A stretch of DNA of 64,000 nt from Synechococcus sp. A18-25c. Its GTDB lineage: Bacteria > Cyanobacteriota > Cyanobacteriia > PCC-6307 > Cyanobiaceae. Of the stretch, positions 1,813 through 33,999 are shown one piece after another (the first letter of the stretch is position 1; each line of letters starts with the position of its first letter). The notes beneath the pieces were generated by a model. The model did no database searches. It saw only the letters and a list, made by a program, of their open reading frames with translations, and was not told the DNA's origin. The DNA lies in the NCBI RefSeq assembly GCF_014280035.1, contig NZ_CP047957.1, positions 1,984,001-2,048,000 of the forward strand. The letters are read 5' to 3'. The translations under genes were made by a program, and so were the position numbers.

Positions 1813-2844
1813 AAAACAGTCGCTCCCGTCTCACACCAATCAACTGCAACGGCGTCCATCCGTCAGCGGAGGAGGGTCAGAAAGCGCAACGGCACAGGCG
1901 AAAAGCCAACCAAGACCAAGATCCAACAAGGTCTCAAAACGCGACCGCATAATCAAGAAGTTTCTCAGGCCGTTGCCGTCAGGCGCCCGGATCACGAAGC
2001 TTGGCGCATGGCTACTACCAGCAACTCCCTGAACGGGCTCCTCGACGAATCCCTCGCAGAACCCCCCATCGGAGAAACCGATCATTTCCACTGGCATGCC
2101 ACTCCTGTAGGGATTGCTGCGCTGTGGCAAGGAGACCACGCTCCACCGACACCACCCTTCAATGAAGCATTGACGGAAGGCCTCAAAGTTGGCCTAGACC
2201 TCAGCCGCGAAGAAAGAGAATTTCATCAAGTGACAAAAGGGTTGGTCCTTCTCTTTCATTCCTAATCAACAGCCAACCATTCCTAACAAGCGAACAACAA
2301 GACCAAACCTCTCATTTGATCAAAACGAAAACACAAATAAATTAATTGAAAGAAAAGAATCATGAAGGGCATCAATCAAGTTGCCATGGGGTCACAGCAA
2401 GCGCTTTGATGAGCACTGAAAGTGACGATGAAACCACACAAACCCAACAACCACCGCAGTCAGCAGAGACAAAGAAATTAGGCTGATCAGTGGCAACAGA
2501 CAGACGAGTGCACGAAAGACCGCACAACAGTTGAAAACAGAAATTCAAAACGTAAGGCACTGAAAAGAAGCCGATAAATCAATCAAACAGATAACAATCC
2601 AAGCAAAAAGGAAAACAAAGGCTGTCAGCTCGAAAAAACAACTCGTGAGATCACAGATAAAATATTAGAAAAAACAAACGTCTCAATGGCAAAGCCAACA
2701 ATCGCCTAGAGCCAAAGGAATGCCCCCATCGCTGAAGAAGCAAAAGGATCAGGCAAAACGGAAAACAAATGAAAAGGCAAAATAAGTCTTAAGACAAAAT
2801 CAAACAAAGAAATCACTTCTAAAATAAAAAAAAGAGAAGTGATC
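1813..2844. other. Intergenic stretch with no supported gene
   Basis: About 1 kb between the divergent sugar transferase and the first multicopper oxidase. Base composition drops from GC-rich (to about 2200) to strongly A-rich (2260-2840), marking the left edge of the accessory block. Minus-strand open frames near 1840-2139 and a plus-strand frame across 1540-2265 have no recognisable domain and no ribosome binding site, and I do not call them. The promoter of the multicopper oxidase gene must lie in the A-rich part, but I cannot place it. Confidence 0.5.
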
Positions 2845-5800
2845 ATGACCAAATTCGTTAATCTACTTAATGCGAAAACAATTGGAAGTGGGAACAATCA
2901 AGCATGGTCGAGACGTGCACTCTCGGAATACCTGAAAAGGATCACTCCTCTGGATCCAGGGTGGAAAGAGTTAGACGATCTGCTGAGAAATAATTTCCAA
3001 AACAGTGACTACCTCAATGTGCTTCCACAGCATCTAGAGAAGATTCCAATCAACAGCGGTTGGCTTGATTGGCAGGCTGCGAACGCACAATATGAGCAAG
3101 GTCGATACAGCCAAACCAATCAAAGCGGAACCTTTTTTTCTAGCTGGGGTCCCAAATACAATGAGGTCAATATTGATTTATCAATTGCAGGCCACGACAG
3201 AATAACAATTGACGGGTTCGGCGAGATCAGAACGCGCGATGAATTTTCAAGAAGCATCTATGACAACGAGTTCTGGTTGTACAACGAACAAACTCCAGGG
3301 CCAGTCATCGTTGCAGATCCAGGTGACACCATTCGAGTCAAACTGAAGAATAACTTAGATGTAGAGGCCCAAACAAAACAATGGAATCCCCAAGCTGATC
3401 GTACAAATCTCCATTTGCATGGCTCACACGTATCACCCAAGGGAAAGGGTGATAACGTAATGATTGCCGTGGAAAATGGTGATAGCCAAGAGTATATCTA
3501 CCAAATCCCAGAAAATCATCCAAGCGGTTTGCTCTGGATGCATCCACATCTGCATGGCACAACATCATTATCGTTAGCAGGTGGAGCTGCATTGCCGGTC
3601 TTTATCCTGCCGGACGAAAAAGATACCAACAATTTAAAAGACTATGATCCAACAACATCGAATATCCATCTTCTAAGCCTTCAGTCATGGGCTGTTGAAC
3701 AAGAAATTAATCCCAATGTAGAACCAGGAGAAAACAATTGGGAAAACACGAAACAAATGCCACCAAGGTTGTTCAAGGACAACGGTAAAAGCTTTTATAA
3801 GTATGGGTCGGCCCCATTCAATGGAAACAATTATCAGCCGTTGGCATTCTTTACGGATAATGACTATTGGGCACCCGGTGGTGCCACTTATGCAGATTAC
3901 GTAGCCGCCAAAACAACAGAAAATCTCATCCACACCGTGAATGGGCAATATAATCCCACGATCAATGCAAAAACAAATGAGTGGGTCACCTTTGGTTTCC
4001 TGAATTTCTCACTCAATTCAAGCCATGTGATTCAGCTTGTTCATGCCGACGAGGAGGGTAACTTAAGCTTAGAATCTCCCAACCTATTGGGAATCGATTC
4101 TGATATTTCGCGTTGGGCATCAGAGTATGACACGTCTGTATCGACTCTCCCAGGACTAGCGCCAGGTGGAAGGATAACAATCCAGCATTCATTTGATAAG
4201 CCAGGAAGTTATTATTTTATTAGTAATGCAAGCAAAGAGGTTCTCGGAGATTTAGCTCCAAACGAAACAAATAGACCAAAGAATTCAAGCGAAACATATC
4301 TTGGATACAACGACGGATTTCAGATCACGCCATCCCAGGTGTTGGCAACAGTGGATGTCTCGAGTGCAGCCGTCGAAGAATCAAAACAACCGAAAGCCTG
4401 GGACTATCTCGATGAACAGAGAGATCACGCACTAGGCCTCAAAGAAGAAGCAGCATCAAAAGGCGTGAATCGAACACGAGAATTTGTTTGGAACACAAAC
4501 GCGCTCGAAATCGAAACTGAAAAAGAACGCAAAACGATGATAGGTCCGGATGGCGAAACTTACATTGATCCTGGATACAATGATCCAGAAGACTGGGAAG
4601 GTGTATGGACAATTAATCAACAATATTGGACGCACAAAGCGACACAAAGTCCAACCATTACCATTGCAATGTTGGACACATTGGAGAGATGGTCACTGGT
4701 CAACAGTTCGAAATCCTCCAAGCGGGATACATACCCCAAAGAGAACCCCAGAACCGAAATCCAAATAGGGCAATCACATCCATTTCACCTCCACCAAAAT
4801 GAATTCATTGTCGAATCGATCAACGGCTTAAAGGTAGGGGCAACGCCCAATCAAAATGAGGTTGGAGATGCCTACGTCGGTGACTCACTGGTCGATGTCT
4901 ATCAAATGGGGCCAGCCTATGCAAAAGGAAGTACAACACCAGACAACCCATTTGGAACACCAATGATACTGGACGAGGACGGAAATTATATCGACGGCAA
5001 TGGAACAAATTGGGGAAATAAAGTGGAGGGCTACTTAACGAATTCAAAAACAGACATCTTAATTCGCTTCGAAGATTTTACAGGCTTATTTGTCGATCAC
5101 TGTCATTTATTATTCCATGAGGATGGGGGCATGATGGTGCCAGTATTGACCATCCTCAATACCAACGACAGCTGGATTACGAGTGGTTCAGCAAATAATA
5201 ATAGCATTCAAATATCGCTTGGTTCAAATAGGGAAAATATAGTCAACTTTCAACCATTTAGCGAAACACAATCAACAGGTGTGAATGTCGCTAATGGTGA
5301 TATCAATGCCTTGAACTTTGTGCCTGGACCAAAGGCAAAAACAGTTCACGTCAGCGATAATATCGAAGATATTGCTGTGATTGAAGCCACATCGTCTACG
5401 ACAGGAGAATTCAAATTAAATGTCTTCGACGGTCAGAGTGCAAAAGATTTCTATGCAGCCAAGCTGTTGAACAATAACGTCAACGTTGATTCGATTCAAA
5501 AGCTCAAAGAATTGAAAATCATTGCAAAGAATCCTCGCAACGGACAAAATCTTAAATCCTCAATTGCAGTAGGCGATATCAACGGAGATGGTTATGACGA
5601 AATCGTTGTTGGCATCTCAGGCAATGGATACGAGCCAGAAATACGTGTTTATAGTGGCGAAACCTTTAAAGAACTATATTGCCTGACACCGTTCGATGGT
5701 GCAATTAGTAATGGTATTGACATAGAAATTGGAGATCTCAACGGAGACAACTATGGGGATATTATTGTCAGCCAATTAGAGGGTGGTCAAGGACTAGTCG

Positions 5801-6408
5801 ATGGTTTCGACGGCAAGAAATTAACAGACAACAACGCAACTGGCATCAGTCCAAAGATGTTATCTGAAATGAGCAAACTCTGGAAAGAGTCATTTAATCC
5901 ACATGGGAAAACAAAGAATGGAATACGCATAGCGGTTGGCTATTCACTCCCGGACGAACAACCAACAGCTTCTGACTATAAGTTCACGGCAAATATGCAC
6001 AATCAAACTTTTTTGGCAAATTTAACCACATTAGAAGTCAAATCCGATGCGAAAACAACTTTTAAAAATTGGCTATATGACTCAAAAGAAGGTGCGCATG
6101 CTGGTCATGGTGTCGAGGACAAACAATCAGCGCACAACATGATGAATGATCAGATCACAGACTATTTTGAAAGTCAACAACCCCGCGAAATAATCAGTAA
6201 TGGTATATTCGACCTCGGTGGAAGTTATAATAATCTTGAATTTCATTATTTCGATATTAACTCGAGTCAAAGAGGGGAGGGTGGCCTTCTGTTGACGCAA
6301 GCAAATGGAGGTCATGCACTGCTCCATCTCAAAACTGCAGAGATGAATAGTTCGGACGATTTTGATTTCGATGCCTTTACCTGGTCAGGCAAAGTTGTGG
6401 ATTTTTAA
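2845..6408 (+). CDS. Large multicopper oxidase with C-terminal FG-GAP/VCBS-type repeats
   Basis: Laccase-like enzyme predicted to oxidise phenols or metal ions one electron at a time while reducing O2 to water. All four copper-binding motifs are present: HLHG near residue 190, HPHLHG near 233, HPFHLH near 645, and HCHLLFHEDGGMM near 752, with Met as likely axial type-1 ligand. After the oxidase (about residues 1-780) come two calcium-loop repeats (GDINGDGYDE and GDLNGDNYGD) and a tail with a His/Met cluster (AHAGHG, then AHNMM). No N-terminal signal peptide is visible, so type I secretion through the C-terminus is an inference. ATG 2845 is preferred over GTG 2839 because GAGAAG sits five bases before it. 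The substrate is unknown. At 1188 aa it is about twice the usual laccase length. Confidence 0.9.
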   Translation: MTKFVNLLNAKTIGSGNNQAWSRRALSEYLKRITPLDPGWKELDDLLRNNFQNSDYLNVLPQHLEKIPINSGWLDWQAANAQYEQGRYSQTNQSGTFFSSWGPKYNEVNIDLSIAGHDRITIDGFGEIRTRDEFSRSIYDNEFWLYNEQTPGPVIVADPGDTIRVKLKNNLDVEAQTKQWNPQADRTNLHLHGSHVSPKGKGDNVMIAVENGDSQEYIYQIPENHPSGLLWMHPHLHGTTSLSLAGGAALPVFILPDEKDTNNLKDYDPTTSNIHLLSLQSWAVEQEINPNVEPGENNWENTKQMPPRLFKDNGKSFYKYGSAPFNGNNYQPLAFFTDNDYWAPGGATYADYVAAKTTENLIHTVNGQYNPTINAKTNEWVTFGFLNFSLNSSHVIQLVHADEEGNLSLESPNLLGIDSDISRWASEYDTSVSTLPGLAPGGRITIQHSFDKPGSYYFISNASKEVLGDLAPNETNRPKNSSETYLGYNDGFQITPSQVLATVDVSSAAVEESKQPKAWDYLDEQRDHALGLKEEAASKGVNRTREFVWNTNALEIETEKERKTMIGPDGETYIDPGYNDPEDWEGVWTINQQYWTHKATQSPTITIAMLDTLERWSLVNSSKSSKRDTYPKENPRTEIQIGQSHPFHLHQNEFIVESINGLKVGATPNQNEVGDAYVGDSLVDVYQMGPAYAKGSTTPDNPFGTPMILDEDGNYIDGNGTNWGNKVEGYLTNSKTDILIRFEDFTGLFVDHCHLLFHEDGGMMVPVLTILNTNDSWITSGSANNNSIQISLGSNRENIVNFQPFSETQSTGVNVANGDINALNFVPGPKAKTVHVSDNIEDIAVIEATSSTTGEFKLNVFDGQSAKDFYAAKLLNNNVNVDSIQKLKELKIIAKNPRNGQNLKSSIAVGDINGDGYDEIVVGISGNGYEPEIRVYSGETFKELYCLTPFDGAISNGIDIEIGDLNGDNYGDIIVSQLEGGQGLVDGFDGKKLTDNNATGISPKMLSEMSKLWKESFNPHGKTKNGIRIAVGYSLPDEQPTASDYKFTANMHNQTFLANLTTLEVKSDAKTTFKNWLYDSKEGAHAGHGVEDKQSAHNMMNDQITDYFESQQPREIISNGIFDLGGSYNNLEFHYFDINSSQRGEGGLLLTQANGGHALLHLKTAEMNSSDDFDFDAFTWSGKVVDF

Positions 6409-6454
6409 CTTCAGTACTCGCTGGGGAACTAAAAAGGTTCGTCTGCTGAATGCA

Positions 6455-6823
6455 CTAAATAGAAAACCCATTGTCAATCACACAAAAAGTGGCCTCCATG
6501 CCGAGGGTTTTCATTTCTGATTTCATCTTTAAAGTGTCATCGTCGTTGGCAACGATGACAAGATTTTCAAGCTCTAACATTGAGAAAAATTCATCTAAAA
6601 GATCTTTTACTGTTTCCAGATGAGCATGAAAGGCGTCAAAGTTGATATAACTTTCTCTCAAAAATAAATGTGAATCATTATAAGCTGCAGTAAACAGAAG
6701 TGTCCCAGTTTCATGATGACCGCGATTAATAATTTCATCAGTGAGTTGCTTGACCGATGACATCATCCCTTCCTTAACGCGGAAAAGTGGGTAGACGCTG
6801 ATAAAGGTATCGGCTCGTTTCAT
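6455..6823 (-). CDS. Small ABM-fold protein (antibiotic biosynthesis monooxygenase-like), first copy
   Basis: A 122-aa protein with the pattern of the dimeric alpha-beta barrel ABM family: an N-terminal beta strand, a helix (MMSSVKQLTDEII), then the family-typical stretch RESYINFDAFHAHLET, followed by the region that packs the second strand pair. ABM proteins include quinol monooxygenases of the YgiN type, which need no cofactor, but many members have no known activity. It is the last gene of the minus-strand run that starts with the MFS transporter, and lies downstream of a second ABM-like gene with a 215-bp gap. Activity is not shown by sequence; membership is moderately sure. Confidence 0.6.
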   Translation of the reverse strand: MKRADTFISVYPLFRVKEGMMSSVKQLTDEIINRGHHETGTLLFTAAYNDSHLFLRESYINFDAFHAHLETVKDLLDEFFSMLELENLVIVANDDDTLKMKSEMKTLGMEATFCVIDNGFSI

Positions 6824-6877
6824 GAATCAAAATCAATTCAATCACACTGTAGACACAACAGGTCCAGGAGAACATTC

Positions 6878-7009
6878 ATGAGGATTTCAAAACTCCACAA
6901 AAATTTGTTTAGCGATATGAACGAAAAAATTCATCGGATGGCAACCGAGAAGCAAGAGCCGGTTATTCTAATCAGCAATCTGCCAGCCTTCATAGAAACA
7001 CACCCATGA
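6878..7009 (+). CDS. Possible small protein of 43 aa with strong ribosome binding site
   Basis: A short reading frame starting at ATG 6878 with AGGAG seven bases upstream (6866-6870), an unusually good Shine-Dalgarno site for this AT-rich block. The peptide is basic at its N-terminus and ends in a hydrophobic patch (PVILISNLPAFI). It lies on the strand opposite to, and between, the two ABM-like genes. No family is recognised. It could be a real small protein or a chance frame; the ribosome binding site is the only support. Confidence 0.35.
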   Translation: MRISKLHKNLFSDMNEKIHRMATEKQEPVILISNLPAFIETHP

Positions 7010-7038
7010 AGGCATTGATCGATTTAAATGAAAATAGT

Positions 7039-7419
7039 TTACCGATAAAATCCTTGAAAAGAAGTCATTTTTACTGGAGATAGTGCGCTGAGTGCGCTCG
7101 ACAACTCATCACTTGGAAACCCGTAAGCAACAACCTTAACGGGGGTCAACAGTCCCATGAAATCCGATCCGAACATATCGCCGAAGGCCTTCATATGGAG
7201 AAGAGCCTGAGCGGAGTTGGAGTAACGCTCGTAGACATGAACTTCGTCGTGGGCAGCACTAGCACTGAATTCAAAATTAGTGGTGTCAGGCTCATTCGAC
7301 TGAAAATACTCAGTCATTTTTGCGGCAAGTGCTGTAATTTCTGAGAATGAATCAGGATTGCAAGAGCAGGTGATCGTCCAAGACACCCAAGTATTGGAAT
7401 CAGAAGAGATGAGAGTCAT
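7039..7419 (-). CDS. Small ABM-fold protein (antibiotic biosynthesis monooxygenase-like), second copy
   Basis: A 126-aa protein with the ABM arrangement: strand (VSWTITCSCNP), helix (DSFSEITALAAKM), strand pair (FEFSASAAHDEVHVYERY), then the helix with SNSAQALLHMKAF, and a final strand (VKVVAYG). The VYERYSNSAQALLH segment is the clearest family signature. It follows the GMC oxidoreductase gene by only 35 bases, so the two are probably co-transcribed. It shares its fold with the neighbouring 122-aa protein but little direct identity, suggesting an old duplication or separate recruitment. A quinol or reactive-carbonyl oxidising role is possible but unproven. Confidence 0.65.
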   Translation of the reverse strand: MTLISSDSNTWVSWTITCSCNPDSFSEITALAAKMTEYFQSNEPDTTNFEFSASAAHDEVHVYERYSNSAQALLHMKAFGDMFGSDFMGLLTPVKVVAYGFPSDELSSALSALSPVKMTSFQGFYR

Positions 7420-7454
7420 TTGAAAGAAGAATTTAGGTGATGAAATTGAAAAAA

Positions 7455-9002
7455 CTAGTGACCGGCCCTGATTAGATCAACAAGTCTTTCAGCGATGGCA
7501 TAGCAAGTGAGCATTGGATTGCGAGAAACATGGTCTGGAATGATGGAGCAATCAACAACTCGCAAAGAGGTGCATTCGTGCACTTTTAAGTATTGATCAA
7601 CGACAGCATGATTATCCGTAGCAGGCCCCATTTTGCATGTGCCAACGGCATGCCATATTGTGGCAGATCGATCAGTAATGTATTGCTCAATAAACTTGGT
7701 ATCATTAACCATATCATCGGTTAAAACGGCTATTCCATCAGAAATATCCTTGAGTGCACCTGTGGTGAGTAACTCATAGCCGCGTCGCACACCGTCAACC
7801 ATCTTGCGCATATCTTCTGCATGTGAATTCAAGCGATGGTCAATGCGGGGTTGCTGATTGGGATCAGACGATTGCAATGTGACACGACCACGCGACTCAG
7901 GACGATTAATCACAATTCCTGTGCCAAACATCAGGCCACGCGTTGGATCAGCACCAGGAAAGCGTTCGGCACCCAATTTGCCAAGACAATAGATTTGCAT
8001 GTCATTGATATGGCTGCTGCCGGGAGCCGTGTAATGAATCACCATTTGAACATCGTCATCAGTCTCATTCACGATCCCAGGCTTTGGATACGAAGCAACA
8101 ACGGCAAGCGAGTGATCAATCAGATTGCTACCAACCCCTTGGAGATTATTAACACAGTCAATCTTCAGCCGATCCAGATCATCAACAGGACCGACACCTG
8201 AGCGAAGGAGAATGGAAGGAGAATTAATCGTACCAGCACTCAAGATCACTTCACCGCCAAAAATACTTTCCACCGAATTATCTGCATGAATCACTTCAAC
8301 GCCGATTGCTTGCTTACCAGAGAAAAGAACCTTATTGACCATCGTTCGATCCTTGATCGTCAGATTCGGTCGTGATTGAGCATCCAAAAGATAAGCAATC
8401 GAGCTCGACACACGCAGTGAACCATCACCAGCTCGATTCATGGGAATAGGGCCTACACCGTCATAACCATTTGGATGATTATGATCTGGCACCCAAGCAT
8501 ATCCGTCAGCCATCGCAGACTCTTTAAATGAAGCGACGACAGGAGAATATTGATCTGGCTTAAAGCGCTGGATGGGAATCTTACCGGAACTCCCGTGATA
8601 AGAAGCATATCCAAAATCAATATCATTTTCGATTCGTTTATACATGGGTAGGATATCTTCCCAGTCCCAACCAGTGTTACCAGCTGCGGCCCAAGCCCTG
8701 AAATCTTGCGGGAGGCCCCGGAGAGAAATCACACCATTAACAGCAGAGCAGCCACCACTGACTTTCCCTCGCGCATAGGGAAAGTCGCGTCCGGGAGTAA
8801 CCTGAGTGATGTAGTGCCAATCATGGGCGTCAACAGACACTGCCCGAGAATCCAAAAGGTCGCGAGGAGTGTCTTCAATGGAGGTGAAATGGGGGCCGGC
8901 CTCCAGAAGCAATACCTTGATATTCTCATCTTCTGTTAACCGAGAGGCAATAACAGCCCCAGCGGTTCCAGCACCAACAATTATATAGTCGAACGTCTTC
9001 AT
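7455..9002 (-). CDS. GMC-family FAD oxidoreductase (choline dehydrogenase / aryl-alcohol oxidase-like)
   Basis: Flavoprotein that oxidises an alcohol to an aldehyde or ketone, passing electrons to O2 or a quinone. The N-terminal FAD motif GAGTAGAVIASRL, the ARGKVSGGCSAVNG signature 1, and the GTINSPSILLRSGVGP signature 2 are all visible. The catalytic pair appears as His451 (WHAVGTCKMG) and Asn495 (RNPMLTC). Length (515 aa) is normal for the family. No signal peptide is seen. It lies 81 bases downstream of the giant multicopper oxidase and 35 bases before an ABM-like gene, so it probably belongs to one transcript with them. The substrate is not identifiable; choline is unlikely to be certain because no betaine genes are nearby. 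Confidence 0.9.
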   Translation of the reverse strand: MKTFDYIIVGAGTAGAVIASRLTEDENIKVLLLEAGPHFTSIEDTPRDLLDSRAVSVDAHDWHYITQVTPGRDFPYARGKVSGGCSAVNGVISLRGLPQDFRAWAAAGNTGWDWEDILPMYKRIENDIDFGYASYHGSSGKIPIQRFKPDQYSPVVASFKESAMADGYAWVPDHNHPNGYDGVGPIPMNRAGDGSLRVSSSIAYLLDAQSRPNLTIKDRTMVNKVLFSGKQAIGVEVIHADNSVESIFGGEVILSAGTINSPSILLRSGVGPVDDLDRLKIDCVNNLQGVGSNLIDHSLAVVASYPKPGIVNETDDDVQMVIHYTAPGSSHINDMQIYCLGKLGAERFPGADPTRGLMFGTGIVINRPESRGRVTLQSSDPNQQPRIDHRLNSHAEDMRKMVDGVRRGYELLTTGALKDISDGIAVLTDDMVNDTKFIEQYITDRSATIWHAVGTCKMGPATDNHAVVDQYLKVHECTSLRVVDCSIIPDHVSRNPMLTCYAIAERLVDLIRAGH

Positions 9003-9083
9003 GAAAAAAGAAAGCTCTATATTTACACTTTAGTCAAGTCCATATAGGCAGCGAACGAGAATTCAAGATTTTTTTATAATGGG

Positions 9084-12000
9084 TCAAAAGAAGCCAGTAT
9101 CTGAGATTGGGGATCCACTCAAAGATGTCAGAACATCGTCTCTATATTGAGCAAAGGTAGAATCAGCTTCCTCCCAATTACTGACTGATCCAGATTCAAG
9201 AATAAGATTCGATAGTTCGTTAAATGATGATTCTTTGCCAACAAAACCTTGACCAAAGTTACCATCGACTACGGCATTCGTCCCCCATTGAATTTGGGAC
9301 CACTTGCTTGCAGCTGATAGCAAAGCGATTCGATAAGTATCAAGACCATTAGTCGATCGTAAAATAGCCATTGGCAAATCAGTTTTCAACAATCCATTCT
9401 TCACCGCAGAGTTCCAAGTGGATAACTCAACGGAAGTAGGTTTTCTGTCATAAAGTGTTTTGAATACCTTTTTTGTAATTGATTTAGAAGACATGTCATC
9501 AAGACTCTCTCCATAAAAGGATTCAACCTGAACAGAATAGTCATCGAGTATTCGATCAATAAGTGCACGAGAGGATAACTCTGATCCATCATTGCCCACT
9601 GATAGTGTGGCCAAATCGCTTGGTTTGATCATCGTATTGGTATAAGCTTGATAAGCCAAGAGCGTGAGATTGATGCGTTGTTCAGCGTCGACAACAGGAT
9701 CAGACACCACTGACCCAAACAATGGATAATTCTGCGTCGGCTGAGTGATGCCAATTAAGTCGTCTACATTCACAAGGTTGATACCCTGAAGATTCAAATA
9801 CAAATCTTGCGTACTATTCGCAATATTCATAGAGCTGGATGGATTACCAATAAAATATTCTCCATCAGATACACCTTGACTAATGACCAAATGATCTTCA
9901 ATGATCAACGCACCGTTGGCAAGTGCACCTGCAAACGTAGGCGTTGCAGACGTCATACCAGACTCGAGCGATTGATGATTCGTCAAGCTCAACATAAATG
10001 CACCCCCAACTTGATTGACACCCTCTAAAGAAGCTGACGACATCTGATGAGCACTATGGTCATCTTCAGAATGCATTGAAGCGCCAGCCATATCATCTTC
10101 TCCACTCATCTTGGCCTCGTCGGATTGAGTTGAACCTGTAGCAATGAAGTTTCCCGAATTAAGTTGAAAGGTGAGTACTTCACTTTGGCCTGATTTTGAT
10201 TCAGCCGTAACAATGAGGTTTTCAATTGCGGATTGAGAATAACTATTGAAGCCTGAGCTGATGGAAAGTGACTTAAGATCGTCGAAACAGCATGTTGATG
10301 TGGGTGTATATTCAATATCCGACAAAATATCAGTATCGGGTAAATATCCACCTTCAAATTGACCAGTTTGGTTGAGTAGAGAAACTGATGCTCCGTCAAG
10401 AATGCGGATTCTCAGAACACTCTGATCAACGTAAGCGAACGCATAATCATCAAAATTATCTAAATTATAGTCTCCAACACCCACAGCAGTTGAAGCACTG
10501 GAAAGCTTGATAGAACTGGCATTAGAAACATTTTCCCAAGGGCGATAACTATAAAGATTTGTCCAGTCGTAGCTATCATCTTTAGCTTGCCAGCCCACCA
10601 ATTCCAGGTCAGAAAGTTTTACTTGGTAATCTTTATCTGGTGACTTGACAAATCCAGCAGTAACCAAATCTCGCTTGCCGTCACCAGTAAAGTCACTGTT
10701 AAAAGCCCAAGGAGACAACGTTGAATCCTCATAAGGTCTAAAGGAAGACAGCAAATTAGATCGTTGGCCATTCTTCAATGAAGATCCATCATAGATACGC
10801 ACTTGGCCCGAAGAATTATCATCTCCGCTAAATGACAAGATAATATCCTGAACAAAATCATTAGAAATATCTCCTACCTGAGCTCGCTTGAGCTTATTCT
10901 TCAGTTCTAACTTTAAATCAAGAGTCACTTGATCAAGAGAATCAGCCTCACGTAAAACAAGACCCTTCTCATTCAAGCGAAATGATTCAGCAGGAATTAT
11001 CCAGCTAGAATCAGTGTTCTCAATAATAGAAACAACTTGCATCATTCCAGCATCTTCATGCTCAAGCAAGTGACAATGATGAACGTAAGTGCCAAGAAAA
11101 TCTTGGAATAACATTCTAATTATTGTCTCATTATAGCCCGTTGTATATAGATTATCCGATGAATTAGGATTCAGAGACTCTTCAATCGGAACAAATTCGC
11201 CGACGAGTGGGTCGAGCTTATGGTGAACTCCTGCGCTATCAACAAAATTAAATCCTGAAGAATTAAGCTGAGTGACGTCCTCTAAATTACGCTTATTAGG
11301 CAATTCGTTATCACTTTGTTTCACTTGATAATCATTAACATGGATATGAAAGGGGTGAGATGTAAAGAAGCCACCATTCGGAGCACTCTTACCTCCCCAA
11401 TTCCAATTGCGCAGCGACCACTCTTCCATTGTTCCAAGCTGAGCAATCACCAATGGCCCTTGAGGAAAAACATGGTCATTAATGAGGTCAGGGCTGACAT
11501 AACCAAGCCAAGGATTATCAATAGACGTTTTAATAATTTCATTCTTATTGACAGCCAAACCAGTATTCGCACGCTCAGCAACTGCCTTTTGAGTAGGGAT
11601 ATCCCGTTGGTCTTCAGGTCCCACTAATTGCAAAATTTGCCAATTGAACTGGCGTTGACGTGTCGGCTTCCAATCTTTTTCAAATAAGTCAACGCTGGGA
11701 ATCGCATCCGCTGAATAGTCTTCACTGCGCGTTTGTGGGGTTATCTTCTGAACATCAATTTGCTGGTTAGCCTCATTGATAAAGGCATCCAAAGCTGGAG
11801 TATTGATTAATGGAGAATCATCGTTAACTTGAAAAGTTGCTATCGCACCAGGTCCAGAATTCGGGTTAGAAAAATCCGTGTTTTCGGATGAAAGTTCGGC
11901 ATATTTATCAGACTGCCAACGCAAGTTGTTGATATCAAACTTTTGACCATTCTTTCCCTCAAAACTATAGGTACTGATTAATTCTGATTTGCCAGCCGGC

Positions 12001-13490
12001 AGATTAACGAGCAAATCAATTCTTTTCCCAGAGGGCAAGGAAATCAGATTCGATGCCTGTTCATATGAGATTGCTTGCTGAGAATTTTGAGCTTGTTGAT
12101 AACCTAAGACACCCTGGGTCGCAGGACGGATCTGAGGATAAGTATGTCCATCTTCACCATAAATGTAGAGTGGCAGCTGAACCCAAGAGCCGTCACTTTG
12201 CTGATGTCGTATTGCTAAATTCATATAGTAATTATTGTCTTGATTACTTAAACTAAATGACTGCCAACCTCCAGAATTCATATTAACTTCTGGTTGGTAC
12301 TCACCATTGATCGTAAACATACTGGCCCGATTAGCAGCCAGTCCTTCTGTGCCAAGGATATTGCCATTCACTGCAGCAAGTTGATAGTCGCCTGATGTTT
12401 GATCGATGCCAACCTGCATCGTCTTGATCACACCTAAGTTTCTAGGTACGTCTTTAAACGCAGGGATTAAACTTAAGGGATCCCCAACCTGCATAAATCC
12501 TGAAAGACCGCCATACACTTGTGTATTAACAGCAGGGTGGAAATGGGGGTGATACCAGTAAGAACCCCTCCCATGATCTTCGGGGATATTAATGATTGTT
12601 GTCCAATCTTGACCCGTTGTATATCGACCAACCACATTATCTCCAAATCCAGTGGGCGTTACATGGCCACCATGCATATGAAAATTGGTGCTGTCCATGG
12701 CACCAGCCATCGAGCCACCATTCAACCCATAAGAATTATTCTCAACCAAGGACGCCATTTGAGCTTGCATCCCAGTCAAGCCTGCAATATTGATGTTGTT
12801 GTCAAATTCCAGTTCTAAAGTCTCACCAGGCTTAATCATTAAGACGGGGCCTGGATAAGATGTTCCTTTGCCCTTTAAACCATAGGTATAGAGCATTGAT
12901 GGATACCAAAGAGGAGGTGTTTCCTCAGAGGCTCCGCTCAATACCGCCAGATTTTTGAGGAGTGAGTTACTATCAAAATCAGATAGAATCTTATCAATCT
13001 CTTTATCGTTACTCCATAGCTCTTCAGGATAATAATTTTCCTTCTTTAATACCTCTGTATAAAGCGTACTAGTTGTCGACGAGGTATCGGCCCAGAATCC
13101 AGTTTGATTGGCTGCTTGATCGTAACCAAATCCTTTGTATCCAATATATGTCAGTGCTTCTAGGAGCTCATTGTTGGTGTAAACACCCCATCCACCCGTT
13201 GGGGGAGTGCTTGTTATCGATTTCAGATATTGATTGAAAATGCTATTTTCATCGTCCTTGTTCGTCAACTGAGGAATCAGCCAGTCTTTAACAAATTTGC
13301 TTACATTTTTAATACCAACCGGATCTGTCGTGATTTCAAGCGATGCCGCAAGAGAACCATTGGAGGTGCCATTATCACTGACATAAAATCCGTTACTATC
13401 CTGTCCCAGGGTAAACCCTGATGATAAAAGTACATTTGGCATCCCATCTTGGTCGACGGGATAAAGGGAGCCGATACGATACTGACTCAC
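9084..13490 (-). CDS. Giant multicopper oxidase with FG-GAP repeats and DUF4214-like C-terminus
   Basis: A 1468-aa laccase-type protein. The copper motifs are intact: HMHG near residue 271, HPHFH near 313, HPFHIH near 711, and HCHLLEHEDAGMM near 805. The oxidase occupies about residues 200-840. Three integrin-type calcium-loop repeats follow (GDISNDFVQD, DFTGDGKRD, GDYNLDNFDD), then a Met/His/Asp-rich segment with MAGASMHSEDDHSAHQM, and finally a DUF4214-like helical domain (KTLYDRKPTSVELSTWNSAVKNG). There is no N-terminal signal peptide; long acidic proteins of this kind with DUF4214 are commonly exported by type I systems, so secretion is inferred. The start is GTG 13490 and has no clear ribosome binding site. 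The 200-residue N-terminal region has no recognised domain. Confidence 0.88.
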   Translation of the reverse strand: MSQYRIGSLYPVDQDGMPNVLLSSGFTLGQDSNGFYVSDNGTSNGSLAASLEITTDPVGIKNVSKFVKDWLIPQLTNKDDENSIFNQYLKSITSTPPTGGWGVYTNNELLEALTYIGYKGFGYDQAANQTGFWADTSSTTSTLYTEVLKKENYYPEELWSNDKEIDKILSDFDSNSLLKNLAVLSGASEETPPLWYPSMLYTYGLKGKGTSYPGPVLMIKPGETLELEFDNNINIAGLTGMQAQMASLVENNSYGLNGGSMAGAMDSTNFHMHGGHVTPTGFGDNVVGRYTTGQDWTTIINIPEDHGRGSYWYHPHFHPAVNTQVYGGLSGFMQVGDPLSLIPAFKDVPRNLGVIKTMQVGIDQTSGDYQLAAVNGNILGTEGLAANRASMFTINGEYQPEVNMNSGGWQSFSLSNQDNNYYMNLAIRHQQSDGSWVQLPLYIYGEDGHTYPQIRPATQGVLGYQQAQNSQQAISYEQASNLISLPSGKRIDLLVNLPAGKSELISTYSFEGKNGQKFDINNLRWQSDKYAELSSENTDFSNPNSGPGAIATFQVNDDSPLINTPALDAFINEANQQIDVQKITPQTRSEDYSADAIPSVDLFEKDWKPTRQRQFNWQILQLVGPEDQRDIPTQKAVAERANTGLAVNKNEIIKTSIDNPWLGYVSPDLINDHVFPQGPLVIAQLGTMEEWSLRNWNWGGKSAPNGGFFTSHPFHIHVNDYQVKQSDNELPNKRNLEDVTQLNSSGFNFVDSAGVHHKLDPLVGEFVPIEESLNPNSSDNLYTTGYNETIIRMLFQDFLGTYVHHCHLLEHEDAGMMQVVSIIENTDSSWIIPAESFRLNEKGLVLREADSLDQVTLDLKLELKNKLKRAQVGDISNDFVQDIILSFSGDDNSSGQVRIYDGSSLKNGQRSNLLSSFRPYEDSTLSPWAFNSDFTGDGKRDLVTAGFVKSPDKDYQVKLSDLELVGWQAKDDSYDWTNLYSYRPWENVSNASSIKLSSASTAVGVGDYNLDNFDDYAFAYVDQSVLRIRILDGASVSLLNQTGQFEGGYLPDTDILSDIEYTPTSTCCFDDLKSLSISSGFNSYSQSAIENLIVTAESKSGQSEVLTFQLNSGNFIATGSTQSDEAKMSGEDDMAGASMHSEDDHSAHQMSSASLEGVNQVGGAFMLSLTNHQSLESGMTSATPTFAGALANGALIIEDHLVISQGVSDGEYFIGNPSSSMNIANSTQDLYLNLQGINLVNVDDLIGITQPTQNYPLFGSVVSDPVVDAEQRINLTLLAYQAYTNTMIKPSDLATLSVGNDGSELSSRALIDRILDDYSVQVESFYGESLDDMSSKSITKKVFKTLYDRKPTSVELSTWNSAVKNGLLKTDLPMAILRSTNGLDTYRIALLSAASKWSQIQWGTNAVVDGNFGQGFVGKESSFNELSNLILESGSVSNWEEADSTFAQYRDDVLTSLSGSPISDTGFF

Positions 13491-13605
13491 AACTGGAAAT
13501 CACAGTGAATAATTCCACCGTAGCCAGCATGAATCTTTAATCACATGATTTAATCATGACTTAAGAAAATAATGAAGTTAGTTCAAAAGCTCTTTTCTTT
13601 GAGAA

Positions 13606-14856
13606 CTAGAGACTTTGTTTCTTGAACGAGTACGCAGTGATTGACATGAGAACAAGATTGATCACAACCAGTGCAAGACCTACATAAAAAATCATTGGCA
13701 CTGAGAAAGTTGATATGTATCCAGCTATGAATGTCATTGATACAAATCCAATACTCAACAAAAAGCTGAATAAAGCCCATGCAGGTCGGACGACATGAGG
13801 ACCAACAACTTCCGTGAGTCGAGCAACAATTAAGCCAATATATGCTCCGTTCCAAAAAGCAAAGAGAAAAGCTCCAAAATTAACAATCGATAAGACTGGT
13901 GTAAAAACAAATAGACAAGTTCCAAACGTTCCAATTGCAACAGACGTGAGAAGAACTGAGTCTGTTGGGATTTTCTTTGGCACTAATCCCGCGATGATCG
14001 CGCCTAAGGTATACCCAAATCCCACTAATGCAAATGAGTTGCTTGCAACTTCACTTGACACTTTAAAAACCGAAGTAACGTAAAGTGGCTGGTACGTCAA
14101 AATTGAAACCTGAGAAGCTCCATAGAGAAGCGTTGTTAATGCAAAAATCTTTAAAGCGGGCGACCAATCGATTCCTCGCGAGACACTTTTACCATCATTC
14201 GTATTGCTCTGACTCGTTGGCGAAGGCGAATTGGTCGCTGCTTGATGTGAAAGTTTTTCGTCTCTCTCCTCAATCAATCCTCTTGAAATCAACATCCAAA
14301 TTGGAATTGCAAAAAGGATGGAAAATAAGCCCGTAAAGTCCCAAGCTGCAACTGGGGAATTTTTGACAAAAAATGGGAGCAAAACTGAATCTAGAAGTGG
14401 TGCGATTCCTGCCCCTGCAAAAATGATCCCCATGGCTAACCGTTTTTGATCAGGATGCAACTTTCGAGTACCAAAGCCGGGCAAGCCTGTCACGAGGTGA
14501 GCGCAACCCCAGCCAGAAATTAAACGCCAAATCGTATTCCATCCCATCGAAGGAAATAGTGGTTCAATAAAAAATATTGCAACACAAACGATCAAAGCGA
14601 TTCGAATCATCCTTAGGGACTGATCCTCTCTTTTGATTCTCGTCTGATGGACGCAACCAGCAAGATACCCGGCTAGATTTAATCCTACAAGTTGACCAAT
14701 ATTATCTGAATTGATCCATTTGGCTTCAACCATCATATTGCCCAGAACAGCTAATTCTGTTCTCTGTAGTCCAACTCCAATCGCGAGCGCAGACGAAGCT
14801 GCTATCACTCCTAAATAGTCGTAAGACGACTCTTTCATTTTAGTCAGATGAGCCAT
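13606..14856 (-). CDS. MFS transporter, YbfB/YjiJ-like
   Basis: A 416-aa inner-membrane protein with about twelve hydrophobic segments split by a hydrophilic loop near residues 205-235 (rich in Ser, Asn, Gln), the usual two-times-six MFS layout. The first half carries GVGLQRTELAVLGNMM and the RLISGWGCAHL segment typical of the YbfB/YjiJ branch. It starts the minus-strand run that continues with the giant multicopper oxidase 115 bases downstream, and so may import a substrate or export a product of that oxidative cassette. ATG 14856 is taken as start; ATG 14838 is an alternative. The transported compound is unknown. Confidence 0.85.
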   Translation of the reverse strand: MAHLTKMKESSYDYLGVIAASSALAIGVGLQRTELAVLGNMMVEAKWINSDNIGQLVGLNLAGYLAGCVHQTRIKREDQSLRMIRIALIVCVAIFFIEPLFPSMGWNTIWRLISGWGCAHLVTGLPGFGTRKLHPDQKRLAMGIIFAGAGIAPLLDSVLLPFFVKNSPVAAWDFTGLFSILFAIPIWMLISRGLIEERDEKLSHQAATNSPSPTSQSNTNDGKSVSRGIDWSPALKIFALTTLLYGASQVSILTYQPLYVTSVFKVSSEVASNSFALVGFGYTLGAIIAGLVPKKIPTDSVLLTSVAIGTFGTCLFVFTPVLSIVNFGAFLFAFWNGAYIGLIVARLTEVVGPHVVRPAWALFSFLLSIGFVSMTFIAGYISTFSVPMIFYVGLALVVINLVLMSITAYSFKKQSL

Positions 14857-16690: not shown

Positions 16691-16712
16691 ATTGTGCCAA
16701 AGTAGCCTAAGC

Positions 16713-19700
16713 ATGGAAGCAGTTGACCCCAACAGTATTCGAGAATACTCGACATCTGGACGTCACCAGGAGTGTCTAAAGGCTTGCCAACAGCTCCTCC
16801 AGAGCGAACCCGCGAGCCCATTACCCTGGAAGTACGCAGGCAAATCACTTCTTTCCCTAGGACAATTCGAGAAAGCTCAACAGTGTCTAGCAAAGGCGCA
16901 TCAGATCGACAATCAAGACCCTGAGGTTGTAAAAGATATTGGAAATATTTTTAACGCTCTCAAAAATGACGCGGAAGCGATAAGACTCTATAAAGTAGCT
17001 CTTTCAATCGACCAGAATTATGCACCAGCGATTAACAATCTTGGTTTGATTGCTAAACGGCAGGGTGACTTATTCGCCGCTCAGCAGTTAGTTAAAAGGG
17101 CTTGTGATCTAGATCAATCGTTCGCTCCATACCACATGAACCTGGGCATCATTTACAAGGACCTTGGCAACCTTGATCAGGCTTTTGCTTACACTCTCAA
17201 ATCGATAGAGCTCAAAGCTGATAATCCCGATGCCCACTTGAACCTGGGCGGTATTTACAAAGATCTCGGCAACCTAGATCAAGCACTTGCTTCCACCCTC
17301 AAATCCCTAGAACTCAATTCTTATAACCCCACTGCCCACATGAATCTGGGCAGTATTTACAAAGACCTTGGCAATCTTGATCAGGCTCTTGCCTCCACTC
17401 TTAAATCCCTAGAGCTCAATCCTGATAATCCTGATGCTCACATGAACCTTGGAACTATTTATAAAGATATCGGAAGCCTTGATAAGGCTCTTGCCTCCAC
17501 TCTTCAATCCCTAGAGCTCAAACCTAATAACCCCACTGCCTACATGAACCTGGGCGGTATTTACAAAGACCTTGGCAATCTTGATCAGGCTCTCGCCTCC
17601 ACTCTTCAATCCCTAGAGCTCAAACCTAATAACCCCACTGCCCACATGAACCTGGGCGGTATTTACAAAGATCTCGGCAACCTAGATCAAGCACTTGCTT
17701 CCACCCTCAAATCCCTAGAGCTCAAACCTGATAACCCCGATGTTCACATGAATCTGGGCAGCATCTACAAAGACCTTGGCAATCTTGATCAGGCTCTCGC
17801 CTCCACTCTTCAATCCCTAGAGCTCAAACCTGATAACCCCGATGCCCACATGAATCTGGGCAGCATCTACAAAGACCTTGGCAATCTTGATCAGGCTCTC
17901 GCCTCCACTCTTCAATCCCTAGAGCTCAAACCTGATAACCCCGATGCCCATATGAATCTGGGCAGCATCTGCAAAGACCTCGGCAATCTTGATCAGGCTC
18001 TTGCCTCCACCCTCAAATCCCTACAGCTCAAACCTAATAACCCCACTGCCCACATGAACCTGGGCGGTATTTACAAAGATCTCGGCAACCTAGATCAAGC
18101 ACTTGCTTCCACCCTCAAATCCCTAGAGCTCAAACCTGATAACCCAATTGCACAAATGAACCTGGGCGGTATTTACAAAGACCTTGACAATCTTGATCAG
18201 GCTCTTGCCCCCACTCTCAAATCCCTAGAGCTCAAACCTAATAACCCAACTGCCCACATGAATCTGGGCAGCATCTACAAAGACCTTGGCAATCTTGATC
18301 AGGCTCTTGCTTCCACCCTCAAATCCCTAGAGCTCAAACCTGATAACCCCGATGCCCACATGAATCTGGGCAGCATCTACAAAGACCTTAGCAATCTTGA
18401 TCAGGCTCTCGCCTCCACTCTTCAATCCCTAGAGCTCAAACCTGATAACCCCGATGCCCATATGAATCTGGGCAGCATCTACAAAGACCTTGGCAATCTT
18501 GATCAGGCTCTCGCCTCCACTCTTCAATCCCTAGAGCTCAAACCTAATAACCCCACTGCCCACATGAACCTGGGCGGTATTTACAAAGATCTCGGCAACC
18601 TAGATCAAGCACTTGCTTCCACCCTCAAATCCCTAGAGCTCAAACCTGATAACCCCGATGTTCACATGAATCTGGGCAGCATCTACAAAGACCTTGGCAA
18701 TCTTGATCAGGCTCTCGCCTCCACTCTTAAATCCCTAGAGCTCAAACCTGATAACCCCGATACCCACATGAATCTGGGCAGCATCTACAAAGACCTTGGC
18801 AATCTTGATCAGGCTCTTGCTTCCACCCTCAAATCCCTAGAGCTCAAACCTGATAACCCCGATGCCCACATGAATCTGGGCAGCGTCTACAAAAACCTTG
18901 GCAATCTTGATCAGGCTCTCGCCTCCACTGTCAAATCCCTAGAGCTCAAACCTGATAATCCCGATACTCACTTAAACCTTGGCAGTATTTACAAAGATCT
19001 CGGCAACCTTGATCAGGCTGTAGCTTCCACTCTCAAATCCATAGAGCTTAAGCCTGATAACCCCACAGCACACATGCACCTTGGAATGACATATGAAGTC
19101 TTGAACAAGTTAGATCTCGCTCTCTGCAGCTATACAAACTCAGCGAATTACAACAAGGAATTCTTTGAAGAAGATTGCTTAACAAGCCTTGTATCTTCAG
19201 CGCTTATCCTCCTACAGTTGAACAAGATAGATTGCGCTAAAACAACCCTCAGGGAAGCGATAGCTCAAGCCAAGCAGAAAAGGAATTACCCAAAGAAAAG
19301 TTCTCTAACAAATGAAATTCACAACAGCGGTTTTATTTCATATCTTGAAAAACTAATTCCTGAAGTCCCAGCCTTAGATAATCATATAAAATCACAAATA
19401 CTTCACCTTGGAGAAAGTCATTGCCTGGCATTTACCAATCAGAAAATAAAAATTGAAGGGAAAGATTTTGCAATCAAGCCATCACTTATTAAGGGTGCGA
19501 AGGCATTCCATCTTACTGAAAATTCAAAATCACTCTCACACATTATTTCTTTTACAAAACGAGTAGAGGCAAATATTGAAATGTATAAATATATTTTTCT
19601 TTCATTTGGCGAGATTGATTGTCGAGCAGATGAAGGCATAGTAACTTACTGTAAGAAAACTGAAAAAAAAATAGAACATGTAGCAATGATTACAGCTGAT

Positions 19701-20015
19701 AGCTACTTCGAATGGACAGCTAATGTCCTTTCTAAGTGCATTAAAAAGCTTGTTTATTTTGGCGTGCCAGCACCGCAAAAAATAGACCCGCATTCACGCA
19801 GCATAGCCTTGGACGATAAGAGGAGGCTTCGTGCGATAAGGACTTTCAATGATTCACTAATGAAAAAATGTGCAGAGTCTGGCATTCTTTTCGCGGATAT
19901 ATTTACTATTACCAAAGATGAAGACGGATTTAATAATAACGAATGGATGATCGACAGGATACACCTTCATCCAAAAGTATTACCAGTAATAGTTGAAAAA
20001 TTAAAGCTGAGCTAG
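16713..20015 (+). CDS. Tandem TPR protein with C-terminal SGNH-like domain
   Basis: A 1100-aa protein. Residues 1-138 hold about four diverged TPR units, then 19 nearly identical 34-residue units with consensus AHMNLGSIYKDLGNLDQALA plus STLKSLELKPDNPD, one more diverged unit, and a C-terminal domain of about 200 residues. That domain shows an SGNH-hydrolase-like order: GESH near residue 897, FGEIDCR near 964, and DRIHLHP near 1080 (His as possible catalytic base). The standard GDS serine block is replaced by GESH, so activity is uncertain. TPR arrays bind proteins; a role in polysaccharide or protein modification is possible. ATG 16713 is preferred over TTG 16692, both with weak ribosome binding sites. 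No signal peptide is seen. Confidence 0.85.
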   Translation: MEAVDPNSIREYSTSGRHQECLKACQQLLQSEPASPLPWKYAGKSLLSLGQFEKAQQCLAKAHQIDNQDPEVVKDIGNIFNALKNDAEAIRLYKVALSIDQNYAPAINNLGLIAKRQGDLFAAQQLVKRACDLDQSFAPYHMNLGIIYKDLGNLDQAFAYTLKSIELKADNPDAHLNLGGIYKDLGNLDQALASTLKSLELNSYNPTAHMNLGSIYKDLGNLDQALASTLKSLELNPDNPDAHMNLGTIYKDIGSLDKALASTLQSLELKPNNPTAYMNLGGIYKDLGNLDQALASTLQSLELKPNNPTAHMNLGGIYKDLGNLDQALASTLKSLELKPDNPDVHMNLGSIYKDLGNLDQALASTLQSLELKPDNPDAHMNLGSIYKDLGNLDQALASTLQSLELKPDNPDAHMNLGSICKDLGNLDQALASTLKSLQLKPNNPTAHMNLGGIYKDLGNLDQALASTLKSLELKPDNPIAQMNLGGIYKDLDNLDQALAPTLKSLELKPNNPTAHMNLGSIYKDLGNLDQALASTLKSLELKPDNPDAHMNLGSIYKDLSNLDQALASTLQSLELKPDNPDAHMNLGSIYKDLGNLDQALASTLQSLELKPNNPTAHMNLGGIYKDLGNLDQALASTLKSLELKPDNPDVHMNLGSIYKDLGNLDQALASTLKSLELKPDNPDTHMNLGSIYKDLGNLDQALASTLKSLELKPDNPDAHMNLGSVYKNLGNLDQALASTVKSLELKPDNPDTHLNLGSIYKDLGNLDQAVASTLKSIELKPDNPTAHMHLGMTYEVLNKLDLALCSYTNSANYNKEFFEEDCLTSLVSSALILLQLNKIDCAKTTLREAIAQAKQKRNYPKKSSLTNEIHNSGFISYLEKLIPEVPALDNHIKSQILHLGESHCLAFTNQKIKIEGKDFAIKPSLIKGAKAFHLTENSKSLSHIISFTKRVEANIEMYKYIFLSFGEIDCRADEGIVTYCKKTEKKIEHVAMITADSYFEWTANVLSKCIKKLVYFGVPAPQKIDPHSRSIALDDKRRLRAIRTFNDSLMKKCAESGILFADIFTITKDEDGFNNNEWMIDRIHLHPKVLPVIVEKLKLS
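17127..19064 (+). repeat. Array of 19 tandem 102-bp repeats inside the TPR gene
   Basis: Nineteen head-to-tail copies of a 102-bp unit (34 codons), many identical at the nucleotide level including silent positions. A segment of roughly 160-180 bp around 17641 recurs almost unchanged near 18559, exactly 918 bp (nine units) later, showing that blocks of repeats were copied as groups. This is expansion by unequal recombination, not a CRISPR array: there are no spacers. Confidence 0.95.
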
Positions 20016-29491: not shown

Positions 29492-29497
29492 GACTAA

Positions 29498-31005: not shown

Positions 31006-31008
31006 TAT

Positions 31009-32331: not shown

Positions 32332-32556
32332 AGTCCATTAGATCATGTGATTGTATAATACCAGATAAACTTTCCTCTCGCGAAGCCATTGTAACATTCA
32401 ATGCAAACCCAAAGTCGAGGAGGTTTGAAGAAAGATTCTATATTTTTAAAATTTTAAATTCCCTATACCTACAAATACCGTGAAAATAAAAATCTACGAT
32501 TGTGAAGCAATAGGTATTCAAAACATTCCGCATTAGATGCATGATAAAGCTTTATA

Positions 32557-33657: not shown

Positions 33658-33999
33658 CTTGTGCTTGCAGTACAATCTAACTGTACCACATCCAGAACAG
33701 CACTAAGTTAGTTGAATTTCCAAAGGCCTTGAAAAGGTGTTAAAATTAAATATTAGCAGGAAGTTGTTATTTCCAATCTGCAATGCCAGCCTAACCTACT
33801 TTATTTACTTGCTCGCGCCTAATTTTACAACTAATCTTTTTGAGTAACAAACCATAAGTAACTATGTTTTTTCTTTAATTCAAATTTCAAAAACTGACTA
33901 AGTGTTTACAGCTAGATCAACCAGCGATGTAATTGCAAATTGTTTACTTTGTTTTAAATATATTTAAGCTCTACTTTTTACTTTTTCAAAAAATATTTA
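33658..33999. other. AT-rich intergenic region upstream of the sugar operon
   Basis: About 340 bases, strongly AT-rich, ending sharply at the GC-rich core near 34010. It probably holds the operon promoter (reading leftward) and possibly the 3' end of the next core transcript. No gene or clear terminator seen. Confidence 0.45.

Follow-up and report, generated by a model that had tools for sequence, protein, structure and literature searches.

The window, which is the whole stretch of 64,000 nucleotides that we analysed, carries a cassette of six genes (MCO1, ABM2, ABM1, GMC, MCO2 and MFS) whose recurring core is the GMC-ABM1 pair together with MFS and MCO2. The cassette is a rare accessory set that has probably spread among picocyanobacteria by horizontal transfer, and its host is a complete 2.51 Mb Synechococcus-type genome (G000, the window genome). 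It spans 2839-14856 of the window, and each gene is an open frame. The features are as follows.

2839..6408, + strand: MCO1, multicopper oxidase of 1189 aa, with FG-GAP repeats at about residues 907-978
3412..3555, + strand: MCO1 copper motifs, pair 1 (HLHG ... WMHPHLH)
4777..5133, + strand: MCO1 copper motifs, pair 2 (HPFHLH ... HCHLLFHEDGGM)
6455..6823, - strand: ABM2, 122 aa, predicted ABM (ferredoxin-like) fold, without a Pfam match
7039..7419, - strand: ABM1, ABM-type protein of 126 aa
7455..9002, - strand: GMC, FAD-type GMC oxidoreductase of 515 aa, His451/Asn495
9084..13490, - strand: MCO2, multicopper oxidase of 1468 aa, C-terminus GFF, Met/His-rich stretch in the tail
12537..12680, - strand: MCO2 copper motifs, pair 1 (HMHG ... 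WYHPHFH)
11043..11357, - strand: MCO2 copper motifs, pair 2 (HPFHIH ... HCHLLEHEDAGM)
9993..10112, - strand: MCO2 Met/His-rich stretch, residues 1127-1166 (8 of 40; 0 of 500 tail shuffles reach 8)
13606..14856, - strand: MFS transporter of 416 aa, MFS_4 (YbfB-like) family

The start at 2845 given in the original prediction is an in-frame ATG inside the MCO1 frame 2839..6408. The AT-rich block with two multicopper oxidases, a GMC oxidoreductase, two ABM-type proteins and an MFS transporter that the original prediction had described is indeed present, with a GC content of 42.6% compared to 50.9% for the whole window. Since MCO1 lies on the opposite strand and is convergent with the other five genes, the six genes cannot form one transcription unit, and a single six-gene operon was therefore ruled out. 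Neither the promoter scan (26 sites vs 29.6 in shuffles) nor the terminator scan (15 vs 13.2) rose above shuffles.

Proteins were classified as multicopper oxidases if they carried the four motifs HxH(G), HxH, HxxHxH and HCHxxxHxxxxM. All four were located both in MCO1 (HLHG at residue 192, WMHPHLH at 233, HPFHLH at 647, HCHLLFHEDGGM at 754) and in MCO2 (HMHG at 271, WYHPHFH at 312, HPFHIH at 712, HCHLLEHEDAGM at 805), which agrees with the claim that the copper motifs of both are complete. The motif Cys and His are kept in all 13 of the MCO2 sequences that span them. Cu-oxidase_2 and Cu-oxidase_3 were above Pfam cut-offs in both proteins; the cupredoxin fold is putative from Pfam, and AlphaFold modelled the MCO2 core with a pLDDT of 26.4. 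The matches of the two proteins in NCBIfam and the PDB include CueO, PhsA (phenoxazinone synthase, for MCO2), CotA and Thermus laccase, among other laccases. However, the NCBIfam names were rejected, as the scores were far under the curated cut-offs (MCO1 against CueO, 54.7 of 525 bits; MCO2 against PhsA, 41.8 of 950 bits). Multicopper oxidases are usually about 500 aa long. Although MCO1 and MCO2 share all four copper motifs with the CueO/CopA and CotA types, they are more than twice the usual length and have additional N- and C-terminal regions. The C-terminal GFF is found in 13 of 14 MCO2, and no paralogue of the last 188 residues of MCO2 turned up in the rest of the genome at E 0.01. A Met/His-rich tail was found in all six MCO2 examined (6 of 14, chosen post hoc) and in both MCO1 copies of the congener G021 (0 of 500 shuffles each), and the Met/His content of the window MCO1 tail is within chance (168 of 500 shuffles). 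No N-terminal signal was visible by eye in MCO1, MCO2 or GMC. MCO1 and MCO2 are candidate substrates of type 1 secretion, which uses a C-terminal signal and a dedicated transporter.

The claim of a GMC oxidoreductase with a His/Asn pair held as well. GMC_oxred_N and GMC_oxred_C were above the Pfam cut-off, and an alignment to HMF oxidase places H451 and N495 at its WHA histidine and distal asparagine, which we take to be the positions of the catalytic His and Asn. Among solved structures, the sequence is closest to alcohol, HMF and choline oxidases. The cassette enzyme has the GMC domains and the aligned pair in common with these, but identities of at least 71% were seen only to four cassette orthologues of the family draw. 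The NCBIfam names choline dehydrogenase (358.6 of 605 bits) and MftG (358.3 of 387.45 bits) were rejected as under cut-off. The MFS transporter was likewise identified correctly, with MFS_4 and MFS_1 above Pfam cut-offs.

The description of the two small proteins as ABM-like is weak by the window sequence alone and becomes firmer with the ABM1 orthologues and with the profile and model of ABM2. The window ABM1 matches ABM (PF03992) at E 0.035 and 14.7 bits (cut-off 23.1), and five of six ABM1 orthologues match it at E of 0.1 or less (best 6.9e-5); a profile search of the PDB with ABM1 found no chain. The ABM2 profile, in turn, matches 3mcs (E 0.00035) and MupZ 6fxd (E 0.0022). The predicted model of ABM2 (pLDDT 81) matches MupZ at 8.0e-10, several structures titled antibiotic biosynthesis monooxygenase, SnoaB, a WhiE protein and LsrG, and ABM2 is thus predicted to have an ABM (ferredoxin-like) fold. 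The predicted fold of ABM2 is shared with the ABM family (MupZ, SnoaB, LsrG), the sequence similarity of both ABM1 and ABM2 to this family is weak, and a profile comparison of the two did not support a close relation (probability 0.5%). Having an ABM fold is not proof of monooxygenase activity; LsrG, within the same fold group, is not known to be an oxygenase.

The expectation that the genes are co-conserved was borne out in part, and the condition under which the original prediction would fail, a lack of co-conservation in any other genome, does not apply. All six occur in the same order in the congener G021, where MCO1 is present twice and GMC has the highest identity to that of the window (96%), but elsewhere only partial sets were found. 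Three genomes of other genera also carry the GMC-ABM1 pair, clustered with MCO2 in two of them and with OprB plus MFS genes in two: G342 has MFS, OprB, MCO2, GMC (77%) and ABM1 in line, G322 has MCO2 (interrupted by the contig end), GMC (77-78%) and ABM1, and G368 has OprB, MFS, GMC (71%) and ABM1, with MCO2 on a separate contig. A further contig, L064, carries GMC (94%), ABM1, ABM2 and a partial MCO1. Because the core that recurs is GMC-ABM1 with MFS and MCO2, searching for neighbourhoods with all six families is too strict. ABM1 adjoins GMC in each of the six loci that have both (window, L043, L061, L062, L063, L064). GMC orthologues occur in 5 of 400 family genomes, strong ABM1 matches occur in the same five, and all of these carriers are inside the set of 14 genomes (of 400) with MCO2, which has a chance of 2.4e-8 under an independence of genomes that does not in fact apply. 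Apart from the window genome, only G021 and contig L064 showed MCO1 and ABM2, and full-length MCO1 was seen only in the window genome and G021 (119 relatives searched for MCO1; ABM2, like MFS, noted as a neighbour of other cassette genes); both genes look optional. Two more distant GMC relatives (61% and 50%) have DJ-1/PfpI genes nearby, and their loci had no blastp match to the cassette multicopper oxidases, ABM-type proteins or MFS.

Between G000 and G021, dN/dS was 0.026 for GMC and 0.027 for ABM1, the lowest among the measured cassette genes, 0.054 for MFS, 0.113 for MCO2, and 0.097 and 0.108 for MCO1. The conserved order in other genomes and the purifying selection on the five genes with measurable dN/dS support the idea of a cassette. 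However, control genes are under similar selection (0.03-0.21), so the low values show function and not a common pathway. Phage or plasmid cargo was unsupported: MCO2 matched none of the 50,697 phage records and had no plasmid match covering 80% (145 records with partial matches), a pattern scan of viral contigs for GMC found nothing, and the plasmid matches of GMC (1217 records) were all below 60% identity.

New here is that MCO2 splits into two lineages (tree of 13 of 14 rows, with the G322 fragment left out and five rows flagged for unlike composition). The first belongs to the GMC/ABM1 genomes, and most genomes of the second carry an MNIO enzyme (PF05114). MNIO occurs in none of the five GMC genomes and in eight of the nine other MCO2 genomes (p 0.003, kinship ignored), where the count includes a fragmentary G193 match containing a stop, and the completeness of G322, G342 and G368 (89, 68 and 68%) bears on the absences; the mutual exclusion of MNIO and GMC among MCO2 genomes is thus weak. 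In five genomes MNIO is close to MCO2 and has a DUF2063-type partner. An MFS gene lies between MCO2 and this pair in G304 and G316, and the MNIO/DUF2063/MFS locus of G025 also has two Coq4-family genes. In G025 a Cu/Zn SOD gene is found 1.7 kb from MCO2. These loci resemble bufferin-type clusters in having PF05114 above cut-off and an adjoining DUF2063-type gene, but differ in that a multicopper oxidase of 1459-1545 aa is encoded close by, and no common short Cys-rich precursor was clear by eye. MCO2 might be one secreted copper oxidase with two alternative partner systems (GMC/ABM1 and MNIO/DUF2063), and in the second lineage MNIO would modify the giant oxidase itself and not a short peptide, as the genes are 29-154 bases apart in G129, G144 and G330 with no clear precursor between them; we regard this as very unlikely. 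Our literature search found nothing joining MNIO with a multicopper oxidase, and the main text of the MNIO landscape paper has neither "multicopper" nor "cyanobact" (PMC12452194).

The explanation of the cassette that we tentatively favour, at somewhat less than even confidence, is copper-dependent extracellular oxidation of phenolics followed by OprB/MFS uptake and cytosolic oxidation by GMC and the ABM-type proteins. We infer the following steps and their order. The large copper oxidases (MCO2, with MCO1 as an extra) would be secreted and would oxidise a small aromatic substrate of phenolic or quinol type outside the cell. The product would cross the outer membrane, possibly through the OprB porin encoded in the cluster of two relatives, and the MFS transporter would carry it across the inner membrane. 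GMC would then oxidise an alcohol or aldehyde group in the cytosol, and the aromatic or quinoid product may be the substrate of ABM1 (and ABM2). A phenolic substrate class is plausible from OprB beside MFS in these two relatives and from a cupin-ABM fusion in the G368 cluster. The latter, a 999 aa protein, matches 4hl9 (5.5e-5) and 2xl7, the copper cupin CucA (Sll1785), in its cupin region (0.0032), but unlike CucA it has this length and an additional ABM domain; among the 14 MCO2 genomes it occurs only in G368, in two copies, and is absent from the window. The cassettes of G000 and G021 contain no porin, and no aromatic ring-cleavage family was found by Pfam among the six cassette proteins. 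Lignin and humic auxiliary enzyme sets (laccase with GMC of the aryl-alcohol or HMF oxidase type) also combine a copper oxidase and a GMC flavoenzyme, but the cassette differs in its multicopper oxidases of 1189 and 1468 aa and its picocyanobacterial host. In one study of Pandoraea sp. ISTKB grown on kraft lignin or vanillic acid, the expressed proteins include a laccase, a GMC oxidoreductase and an ABM protein, which are given there as entries of a whole-proteome table (ABM ratio -1.87) and not as one cassette (PMC5987411). Our literature search found nothing combining Synechococcus, multicopper oxidase and GMC oxidoreductase, and among the matches listed there was no title on the cassette.

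The MNIO and DUF2063-type genes beside the other MCO2 lineage point to peptide or copper chemistry, against the phenolic reading. The GMC and ABM-type proteins could instead make or modify a small aromatic or quinoid metabolite that MFS exports and the secreted oxidases oxidise or polymerise outside, as a pigment, signal, defence compound or metallophore. The matches of ABM2 to MupZ of Pseudomonas fluorescens (its best by structure), SnoaB and the WhiE protein place ABM folds of antibiotic and polyketide tailoring near, and the MNIO/DUF2063 pair, of RiPP-modifying type, near the sister-lineage MCO2 would fit such a route, as would the intervening MFS and the Coq4-family genes. However, no scaffold-building family (PKS, NRPS) was found by Pfam among the six cassette proteins, OprB beside MFS suits uptake at least equally, and we consider this possible but rather unlikely.

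The multicopper oxidases might also act as cuprous (or Mn) oxidases in cell protection or copper acquisition, with GMC and the ABM-type proteins as redox partners. Mn or Cu, which the original prediction also named, may thus be the substrate. The Met/His-rich tails of the MCO2 examined and of the G021 MCO1 copies are consistent with this, as are the Cu/Zn SOD gene, the weak likeness of the G368 cupin to the copper cupin CucA (PDB 2XL7; PMC4192464) and the makers of copper chelators within the MNIO superfamily (PMC12452194). But GMC and ABM have no obvious metal-handling role, the window MCO1 tail does not exceed chance, and no copper pump or chaperone family was found by Pfam among the six proteins, so that metal handling seems unlikely to us. 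Co-location without a common pathway, since islands gather accessory genes, is quite improbable for the cassette. In its favour, the block is AT-rich, MCO1 is convergent to the other genes, and of the 119 relatives searched only G000 and G021 have full-length MCO1 relatives. Against it, other genera have GMC-ABM1 together with MCO2 and/or MFS amid differing flanking genes, and the GMC carriers are a subset of the MCO2 carriers. These results largely refute a loose island for GMC-ABM1-MCO2-MFS, and it may still apply to MCO1 and ABM2.

If the phenolic reading is true, some photosynthetic picocyanobacteria would hold a transferable kit to oxidise and import aromatic dissolved organic matter, and mixotrophy on phenolic carbon would become directly testable in strains. 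The two MCO2 lineages with their differing partners are also a natural experiment on the maturation and use of a giant, probably exported copper oxidase.

All six genes proposed by the original prediction as an oxidative cassette (window 2839-14856) are open frames in the order it gave, on the single contig of the window genome (2,511,360 bases, completeness 99.95%). MFS, MCO2, GMC, ABM1 and ABM2 lie on the minus strand, separated in turn by about 115, 81, 35 and 215 bases; MCO1 opposes them on the plus strand. Pfam cut-offs are exceeded by MCO1, MCO2, GMC and MFS, whereas the two ABM assignments depended on additional analysis. The block has a G+C content of 0.43 compared to 0.51 for the whole window; the corresponding values are 0.42, 0.45, 0.49 and 0.50 in the relatives G021, G368, G322 and G342, with flanks of 0.56-0.68, so that the block is lower in G+C than its surroundings in every genome measured. 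Elsewhere in the window, a 1107 aa protein containing numerous near-identical TPR units is found at 16692-20015, a stretch of strong compositional skew (GC skew of -0.32 between 17 and 19 kb). An AT-rich region at 26034-33675 resembles a nonulosonic-acid surface sugar cluster; its genes encode NeuB-family, cytidylyltransferase, aminotransferase and reductase proteins.

GMC matches at E 1e-60 or better were present in 8 of 119 relatives: the window genome itself (G000), the congener G021 (96%) and six at 33-36% identity. The G021 genes follow the same order as in the window, with MCO1 in two copies (69% and 77%), beside the same sugar transferase and CobD genes. We then considered 400 family genomes, where the ABM1, GMC and MCO2 searches were treated as one draw because group size and quality tally were identical. 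ABM1 gave 23 matches, five of them strong (G000, G021, G322, G342 and G368); the remaining 18 are weak (28-34% identity over part), all within genus g18, where these proteins are mostly open frames of about 126 aa. GMC gave seven matches, five at 71-100% in the same genomes as the strong ABM1 and two at 34%. MCO2 was found in 14 genomes, including all five. In a phylum draw of 386 genomes, evidently without the other four carriers, the window and a single GMC match of 36% were the sole hits with E of 1e-80 or lower. Arrangements outside G021 are as follows.

G342: MFS, OprB porin, MCO2, GMC and ABM1 in succession on a single strand, reaching near the contig end
G322: MCO2, truncated at the edge of the contig, GMC and ABM1 in succession
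G368: cupin-ABM, OprB and MFS on one strand, GMC and ABM1 on the other, MCO2 on a separate contig
3.4 kb contig under a proteobacterial MAG: GMC (94%), ABM1 (85%), ABM2 (71%) and partial MCO1 (48% over 225 residues)

The last is likely a case of wrong binning. The observation behind the original prediction is correct, and at the level of gene content the cassette proposal withstands its refuting condition of no co-conservation in any other genome, with six genes in G021 and the GMC-ABM1 pair in G322, G342 and G368. Non-cyanobacterial GMC relatives occur in a Competibacteraceae MAG (61%, locus L068) and an Acidimicrobiia MAG (50%, L069), both with DJ-1/PfpI genes nearby; blastp gave no match to the cassette MCOs, ABMs or MFS in these two loci. 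A SnoaL-like gene adjoins GMC in L069.

Between the window genome and G021, dN/dS was 0.026 for GMC, 0.027 for ABM1, 0.054 for MFS, 0.113 for MCO2 and 0.097 and 0.108 for MCO1, with three control genes at 0.03-0.21; synonymous change in ABM2 was saturated.

Of the 14 genomes with MCO2, eight contained MNIO (PF05114): none of the five with GMC/ABM1 and eight of the nine without, the exception being G356, which lacks both. MNIO and a DUF2063-type partner gene (assigned by Pfam for G304 and G129 and from similarity for G316, G330 and G144) are close to MCO2 in these five genomes (loci L078, L079, L080, L081, L082). An MFS gene lies between MCO2 and the pair in G304 and G316, the latter also having an amine-oxidase-family gene there, and MCO2 and MNIO are 29 bases apart in G129. 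No shared short precursor was apparent by eye among the short Cys-containing frames of the MNIO-MCO2 loci. In a tree of 13 MCO2 proteins, four from GMC genomes were split from the eight of MNIO genomes with support 100/100; G356 falls on the MNIO side and G368 in the GMC group, although its MCO2 sits outside its cluster. This suggests, but does not prove, two MCO2 lineages that may have different partners, since three of the GMC genomes are incomplete. Separately, L100:2677-9024 of G025, distant from the MCO2 of that genome, contains MNIO, DUF2063-type, two Coq4-family and one MFS gene.

Both window MCOs have complete copper motifs; for MCO2, all 13 proteins that span these motifs keep their histidines and cysteine. 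An alignment of GMC with HMF oxidase covers the His and Asn positions, which we take to be catalytic. No N-terminal signal is visible by eye in MCO1 or MCO2. The acidity of the two MCOs (pI 4.76 and 4.45), a C-terminal GFF in 13 of 14 MCO2 and Met/His-rich tails in the six MCO2 tested and both G021 MCO1 copies, unlike the window MCO1, would fit exported copper proteins. Judged by eye, GMC, ABM1 and ABM2 would be cytosolic.

The component families are already known, and the combination was not found in open-licence literature among the matches listed. MCOs are O2-reducing oxidases of phenols or metals, GMC enzymes oxidize alcohols and aldehydes, and the ABM family covers both monooxygenases of quinols and aromatic polyketides and non-oxygenases; our proposal follows from this family knowledge. 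OprB beside MFS in two relatives may offer a route through both membranes. In G368 the cupin-ABM protein, which bears a weak resemblance to the copper cupin CucA, would bring an ABM domain alongside a possible metal site. Its two copies are 41-44% identical.

L063:3593-6592: cupin-ABM protein, 999 aa
L099:7944-10802: second copy, about 950 aa, in the vicinity of genes for a lipoprotein-like protein of the ABM family and a member of the dienelactone hydrolase family

Taken together, the features of the MCOs, GMC, the ABM proteins, OprB/MFS and cupin-ABM favour an aromatic chemistry that may operate on both sides of the envelope.
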